A DNA stretch of 64,000 nucleotides, taken from contig NZ_CADO01000016.1 of assembly GCF_000285275.1 (NCBI RefSeq), positions 1 through 64,000 on the forward strand, read 5' to 3'. The notes beneath the pieces were generated by a model. It saw only the letters and a program-made list of their open reading frames with translations, was not told where the DNA came from and ran no database searches. A program made the position numbers and the translations under genes. Positions 8,282-30,848 of the stretch are shown one piece after another; the first letter of the stretch is position 1; every line of letters begins with the position of its first letter. This DNA comes from Acetobacter pasteurianus subsp. pasteurianus LMG 1262 = NBRC 106471. GTDB lineage: Bacteria; Pseudomonadota; Alphaproteobacteria; Acetobacterales; Acetobacteraceae.

Positions 8282-8340
8282 GCCTTCATAACATCAGTTG
8301 CGGCTTGACCTGAACGCAAGCCCGACGCAGGGTGCGCTCC

Positions 8341-8766
<426 letters not shown>

Positions 8767-8810
8767 ACTCTCTTTCTTCTCAATCCACTCTGTTTTTTAC
8801 ACCAGAAATA

Positions 8811-8825
8811 GAACATAAAAAGAAC
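8811..8825. promoter_or_regulatory. LexA-type SOS box upstream of the division cluster
   Basis: GAAC (8811-8814), seven bases, then GAAC (8822-8825). This is the reverse complement of GTTC-N7-GTTC, the direct-repeat LexA operator established for alphaproteobacteria. It lies 45 bases after rnpB and about 235 bases before mraZ. It shares the A-rich spacer style of the box before recN at 30834. LexA binding is inferred. Confidence 0.5.
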
Positions 8826-8941
8826 AGAAAACGGCAATCTTTTGTTTGCCGCCACAAAATCAATACATTCGTGTCAGAAATCTTTTCTGCATGAATACTT
8901 AAATAATGGCGGTTTTCTGCTGTTTTTTCTGTCATTTTAAT

Positions 8942-8972
8942 TTGCGTCCCATAACATCCCATGCTATCCCAT
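8942..8972 (+). promoter_or_regulatory. mraZ promoter overlapped by three MraZ boxes
   Basis: TCCCAT occurs three times at exact 10-base steps (8947, 8957, 8967). On the minus strand these read ATGGGA, matching the repeated TGGG(A) sites bound by MraZ. A TTGCGT (8942-8947) and TATCCC (8965-8970), 17 bases apart, form a promoter within the same stretch. This fits autorepression by MraZ, as known in other bacteria. Confidence 0.75.
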
Positions 8973-9058
8973 ACCAGACCACAAGTGTGGTGAAGGCGGT
9001 TCTGTTCCCCGCTGAATTGCGAACGGAAAGGCTGTTTCTGCAAAGGCTTCTGACGTAC

Positions 9059-9544
9059 GTGGGCGTATTTCTCGGCACGCATGAAAATCGATTCGACGCC
9101 AAGGGGCGCATTTCGATTCCTGCCGGGTTCCGTTCAGTGCTCAAAACGCAGCAGACGGAAGGTGATGCGCTGATGATTCTCCGCCCCTCCCATACCCTGC
9201 CATGTGTTGAGGCATGGCCTGCCGTTGCTTTTGCACGCCTGACCGAACCGCTTGATCGGCTGGACATGTTTTCTGATGAACATGATGATCTGGCCGCCGC
9301 CCTCTATGCCGATGCCTACCCCATAGATCCCGACCGCGAAGGCCGTATTATTTTACCTGATTTTTTGCGTGAACATGCCGGGCTGACAGAAAGCCCAACG
9401 GCTGCCTTTATGGGTGTTGGCCGTATTTTTCAGATCTGGGAGCCTCAGGCCGCACAGCAGCGCCGGGCAGAAGCGCGGCAGCGTTCACGCCGTGTAAGTA
9501 TTCCGGCTGCAAATGGTGCAGAGCCAAAAGGGCGTAATGCATGA
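9059..9544 (+). CDS. mraZ: Transcriptional regulator MraZ
   Basis: A 161-residue, AbrB-fold DNA-binding protein and the first gene of the division cluster. It contains both MraZ repeats, [19 protein letters not shown] near the N-terminus and [19 protein letters not shown] later. The GTG at 9059 was chosen because it places the protein start just before the first conserved repeat; the in-frame ATG at 8906 would add about 50 unrelated residues and lie upstream of the promoter. It ends in a basic tail and overlaps rsmH by four bases. Three MraZ boxes upstream suggest self-regulation. Confidence 0.92.
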
Positions 9545-30833: not shown

Positions 30834-30848
30834 GAACATATAAAGAAC
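30834..30848. promoter_or_regulatory. LexA-type SOS box upstream of recN
   Basis: GAAC (30834-30837), seven bases, GAAC (30845-30848), equal to GTTC-N7-GTTC on the minus strand, the alphaproteobacterial LexA operator. It sits between bamD and recN, and recN is a classic SOS gene, which supports the call. It is about 140 bases before the recN start. Confidence 0.65.

Follow-up and report, generated by a model that had tools for sequence, protein, structure and literature searches.

Does the SOS response act on the division and cell wall (dcw) cluster of Acetobacter through an operator at the head of the cluster? The question arises from a GAAC-N7-GAAC direct repeat in the window, the 64,000-nucleotide stretch of Acetobacter pasteurianus DNA analysed here. 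A sequence-only reading had described a perfect copy of this pattern between rnpB and mraZ and had likened it to the box before recN. A pattern search of the window bears out both descriptions: the repeat, GAACATAAAAAGAAC, is present on the + strand, 41 bp past the end of rnpB and 248 bp ahead of the GTG at 9059 that we assigned as the mraZ start, and 14 of its 15 bases are shared with the recN box (Table 1). Behind mraZ, the genes rsmH, an FtsI/PBP-type transpeptidase gene, murE, murF, mraY, murD, an ftsW-like gene, murG, murC, murB, ddl, an ftsQ-like gene, ftsA, ftsZ and lpxC follow in the same direction, the FtsI, FtsW and FtsQ matches being below curated cut-offs.

Table 1. Features of the rnpB-dcw region and the recN comparison site, in positions of the window.
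Feature	Position	Strand	Basis or remark
rnpB, RNase P RNA class A	8342-8769	+	RF00010, 327.3 bits; upstream, co-directional
Probable LexA box GAACATAAAAAGAAC	8811-8825	+	Exact pattern; lexA-box matrix; position kept in relatives
T-rich block with short hairpin, terminator-like	8905-8931	+	Conserved in part of Acetobacter
Candidate main dcw promoter	8942-8970	+	-35 TTGCGT 8942-8947, -10 TATCCC 8965-8970, spacer 17; alignment
MraZ-type operator	8948-8972	.	Three CCCAT at 10-bp spacing (8948, 8958, 8968); highly conserved block
mraZ, first dcw gene	9059-9544	+	PF02381; GTG start assigned in this analysis
Rest of dcw cluster, rsmH to ftsZ and lpxC	9541-29698	+	Family matches
recN LexA box, comparison site	30834-30848	+	Exact pattern and matrix; next gene is RecN (TIGR00634)

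The pattern by itself means little. The window holds five exact GAAC-N7-GAAC sites where 1.03 are expected, and the 2.98-Mb genome holds 67 compared with 55 for the reversed control, a bare 8-base count so near its control that only comparison can decide. Scored with a matrix built solely from 55 lexA boxes of alphaproteobacterial lexA loci, the lexA, recN and mraZ boxes of the host genome reach 24.5, 20.8 and 17.8, respectively. With the lexA-box matrix, two sites in the window score at least 12 bits, that of recN first and that of mraZ second, whereas 20 block shuffles of the window gave a mean of 0.6 and a maximum of 5 such sites and none reached the mraZ score. When all exact sites in the genome are ranked with a matrix from 27 lexA boxes, five score at least 16: those of lexA, recN, mraZ, an IF-2B-family gene and a small ORF. 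Two of these five best sites, at 8811-8825 and 30834-30848, stand 22 kb apart and flank the mraZ-bamD stretch. The strong LexA-like box GAACGTATTTAGAAC is found 28 bp before the IF-2B-family ORF (PF01008), possibly mtnA (L409:2959-2973; G000:C136:47975), and the LexA-like box GAACAAATACAGAAC precedes an ORF of ~81 residues with no Pfam or NCBIfam match (L016:1501-1515; G000:C75:66764). The host genome encodes LexA itself (TIGR00498, 182.3 bits, over the cut-off). Within 400 bp upstream of its recA and uvrA genes the matrix finds no clear LexA box (best scores ~0 and 5.6, respectively), and the host SOS regulon may therefore be small. A search for similar DNA in plasmids found none.

The direct repeat and the spacing of the window site are identical to those of the alphaproteobacterial LexA operator, reported as GTTC-N7-GTTC (PMC3323433, PMC13384398). 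Moreover, the reverse complement of GAACATAAAAAGAAC fits the core TGTTC-N6-TGTTC of the experimental Caulobacter LexA consensus, given as (T/A)TGTTC-N6-TGTTC (PMC13384398). At the outer T/A the window site has a C. The position flanks the core of a consensus established in a different order; the Acetobacter recN box does have the T/A, and we do not treat the position as defining for Acetobacter. As a positive control, the exact pattern is found before lexA in 55 of 60 lexA loci, compared with 0-2 for control motifs. In an alignment of 60 mraZ boxes, conservation takes the form of two AGAACAWA units 11 bp apart and is hardly seen elsewhere from -40 to +74.

Conservation of the site was examined at the level of the class. 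A class-wide draw gave 208 genomes with an mraZ match, and 130 of these were examined; here as in the family sample described below, the selection passed over a number of genomes from families or genera already represented and over those at the weak end of the match lists. GAAC-N7-GAAC lies within 500 bp before mraZ, on either strand, in 50 of the 130 genomes. Control spacers of N3, N4, N5, N6, N8, N9, N10, N11 and N12 are found in 2, 3, 0, 4, 7, 1, 0, 2 and 3 of them, and the reversed motif in 2. The stricter TGTTC-N6-TGTTC precedes mraZ in 40 of 130 genomes, compared with 0-2 in controls. The 50 box genomes carry 37 family labels, the box reads as GAAC in 37 of them and as GTTC in 13, and the median distance between box and mraZ is 286 bp.

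The presence of the box is linked to that of LexA. A LexA match over the curated cut-off is found in 99 of the 130 class genomes, and the box is found in 49 of these 99 and in only 1 of the 31 others (Fisher p 1.05e-6, with genomes counted as independent whatever their ancestry or size). The single box genome without a LexA match (G239) is a fragmented assembly, and its congener G153 has LexA. In both G239 and G153 (L222, L237) three tandem GTTC half-sites at 11-bp spacing are found before mraZ, making two overlapping LexA boxes. With the matrix at a 99% null threshold, a site is found in 35 of 99 LexA-bearing genomes and 1 of 31 others (p 1.8e-4, genomes again counted as independent), and at a 95% null threshold in 51 of 99 and 2 of 31. 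Half of the LexA-bearing class genomes are without an exact box before mraZ.

Among 70 named mraZ loci, GAAC-N7-GAAC precedes mraZ in 49, made up of 33 of 36 from Acetobacter, all eight from Asaia and Swaminathania, Lichenicoccus, and 7 of 7 from MAGs that are more distant and carry the labels Rhodospirillaceae, Alphaproteobacteria or Proteobacteria. The 21 named loci without an exact box include Gluconacetobacter, Novacetimonas, Tanticharoenia, Roseomonas MAGs, Endobacter and Acidiphilium. Some of these loci retain a degenerate copy at a similar place, as three from Novacetimonas do with GAACAAAACATAAAC at -263 or -264; in the Roseomonas MAGs tested, the matrix finds no degenerate copy at a similar place. 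The box lies 246-250 bp before mraZ in the main Acetobacter group, although much of the intervening sequence is poorly conserved, and 215-227 bp before mraZ in another Acetobacter group. In the Acetobacteraceae family sample, for which 68 of 137 mraZ matches were examined and two regions extended less than 500 bp upstream, 15 of the 68 mraZ upstream regions have the exact box and 53 are without it. Two genomes of the same genus (G038 and G039; only 1.5 and 1.7 Mb, yet 96 and 99% complete) gave no mraZ match. The sequence-only reading had proposed looking for the box before mraZ in other Acetobacteraceae, and the box proves to be kept far beyond that family. Its interpretation of the site stands to this extent: judged from sequence comparison, 8811-8825 is very probably a LexA operator, conserved at its place.

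The box differs from the known alphaproteobacterial LexA operator in its presumed target, the dcw head and not a repair gene, and it lies 116 bp before the -35 of what we take as a candidate main dcw promoter. This promoter was assigned by alignment. TTGAC(G/T)-N17/18-TATCCC overlaps the CCCAT block in a number of relatives; in the promoter scan of the window, another pair outscored TTGCGT-N17-TATCCC. Within the 200 bp ahead of mraZ, CCCA-N6-CCCA is present in 107 of 130 class regions and 65 of 68 family regions, compared with 12 of 130 for the N5/N7 control. MraZ binds repeats of this type; the block is read as an MraZ operator and 8942-8970 as a candidate for the MraZ-controlled main promoter of the cluster. 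The spacing between the LexA box and this promoter varies between genera.

LexA proteins are mostly repressors of the promoter at their operator. With the candidate main promoter located elsewhere, the box is most simply read as marking another promoter, a distal one at about -250, with a transcript that heads for mraZ. Bound LexA would repress this promoter, near the box and ~250 bp before mraZ, and RecA-driven cleavage of LexA upon DNA damage would release a transcript towards or into mraZ-ftsZ. The SOS transcript would add to the steady output of the MraZ-controlled promoter, and it might serve to tune how much wall precursor and division protein is supplied during the time that septation is blocked by separate inhibitors. 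That the SOS response is wired to the dcw head through this box, in Acetobacter and in many other alphaproteobacteria, strikes us as a claim for and against which the case is evenly balanced; that LexA does so by repressing a distal transcript that reads into the cluster is plausible, if a little short of an even chance. In most other species, Caulobacter included, transcription is reported to start within 70 nt of mraZ (PMC5089854), a finding unfavourable to a distal promoter that is active without stress. Under LexA repression, however, such a promoter would give no transcript until the cells are stressed, and the reported mraZ-proximal starts are no test of SOS.

A different use of LexA at this place would be the control of a short leader RNA that starts near the box, is terminated at 8905-8931 and reads through into mraZ only rarely. 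Such an RNA would resemble UpsM of R. sphaeroides, where a promoter 268 nt before mraZ is reported both to drive the dcw cluster and to yield this sRNA (PMC5089854). The layout proposed for Acetobacter is the same, and the UpsM start, ~270 nt before mraZ, is near the position of the box in relatives; in the Acetobacter window there is a closer candidate promoter, at 8942-8970, and LexA is nowhere mentioned in the UpsM paper. In the window strain, RNA from 8827-8935 folds far better than its shuffles (z -4.6, 0 of 200), and a strong fold is found in a few relatives, five near relatives being too similar for a pairing test. Over 50 relatives, however, the mean fold z is just -0.77, and a conserved structured leader RNA, strong in the window, was rejected as weak overall. 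The T-rich block, kept in part of Acetobacter, is present in 29 of 37 sequences, 23 of the 29 having a hairpin at least as stable as -4 kcal/mol, but it is missing in 8 and may simply end rnpB. An enrichment of terminators between box and mraZ was likewise rejected, terminator-like signals being about as frequent as in shuffles (16 of 65 regions with a box, 16.4 in shuffles). The box regions thus differ from the UpsM leader in showing neither conserved RNA structure nor terminator enrichment, and we consider a LexA-controlled leader RNA unlikely. An Rfam search of 40 upstream loci returned RNase P RNA as the sole match. A small ORF between box and mraZ was also discarded as a candidate, none being common to relatives; in one Acetobacter group an ORF of 24 codons directly follows the box.

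LexA might also act at the box with no promoter there: it could be a roadblock that stops transcription reading on from rnpB, or it could stimulate or impede the main promoter from afar. At least 42 of 65 box regions have rnpB upstream in the same direction (40 by its 3'-end pattern and two more by Rfam), which makes mraZ the natural target of the box in those regions; in the rest of the 65, rnpB is not seen within 500 bp. The promoter searches are consistent with such action and count against a distal promoter at the box, within the limits of a scan that is weak for this class: promoter scores around the box are not above those of shuffles (mean z 0.15 over 65 regions including the window), a scan of 8300-9100 found no promoter, and in 60 aligned boxes no promoter elements are evident at a fixed distance from it. 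In two small genomes the box lies just 103-123 bp before mraZ. Against these points stand the variable spacing to the promoter and the general habit of LexA of repressing at promoters, and we hold a roadblock or an action at a distance to be rather improbable.

It is much less probable still that the protein binding the box is not LexA but another regulator with GAAC repeats 11 bp apart as its site. The inner spacer of the mraZ boxes (GAACAWAMRAGAAC) does differ somewhat from that of the lexA boxes (many GAACYAAANTAGAAC), but a nearly identical box stands before recN, which is of a known SOS gene type, the mraZ box follows the presence of LexA across the class, and the Caulobacter consensus fits (PMC13384398). 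A chance match in AT-rich intergenic DNA, against which the sequence-only reading had cautioned, is highly improbable: the caution holds for the bare pattern, whose genome count is near its control, but not after a class-wide comparison in which the motif is enriched against spacer and reversal controls, conservation is limited to the motif, and the box keeps the same place in nearly all Acetobacter loci.

What did not stand is the view that a LexA site where the dcw cluster starts would be unusual, there being precedents. In E. coli, LexA is reported to repress the 5' region of the dcw cluster through three SOS boxes (PMC3265435); in our search of positions 89100-90200 of E. coli MG1655, no exact CTGT-N8-ACAG was found, and six sites with at most two mismatches were found where 4.1 are expected. 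In Gram-positive gut bacteria, mraZ has been proposed as an SOS gene, and LexA is reported to bind an mraZ-associated site in vitro by EMSA (PMC3998124). In these systems too, LexA is linked to a division-cluster head or to mraZ, whereas the motifs and lineages differ from those of Acetobacter. SulA and SidA (PMC4211646) also link SOS to division, but as separate small proteins; here it is the operon that carries the box. A Caulobacter SOS study defined 47 SOS genes, and mraZ is absent by name from its main text (PMC12700426). Our literature search did not find a LexA-mraZ link in Alphaproteobacteria, an earlier notice in the classic regulon papers being possible. Links between LexA and the dcw cluster have been reported from other lineages; the alphaproteobacterial version, whose box lies farther from mraZ than the MraZ operator and which roughly half of the sampled LexA-bearing genomes carry, is new as far as our searches reach.

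Dedicated inhibitors, SulA and SidA among them, are the usual explanation of why division stops during the SOS response. The finding of the box before mraZ in about half of the sampled LexA-bearing genomes points to the division and wall operon itself as a member of the SOS regulon across much of the class. We tentatively propose, as a view that we think somewhat less likely to be right than wrong, that LexA control of the dcw head is an old, class-wide alphaproteobacterial feature, exerted via a distal LexA-repressed transcript apart from the MraZ promoter, and that the link, which is reported with other LexA motifs in E. coli and Gram-positives, was kept or regained at each change of the LexA operator. 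If true, the SOS response would act on division both by inhibitors and at the division operon itself, and DNA damage would be tied to the supply of wall precursors and FtsZ.
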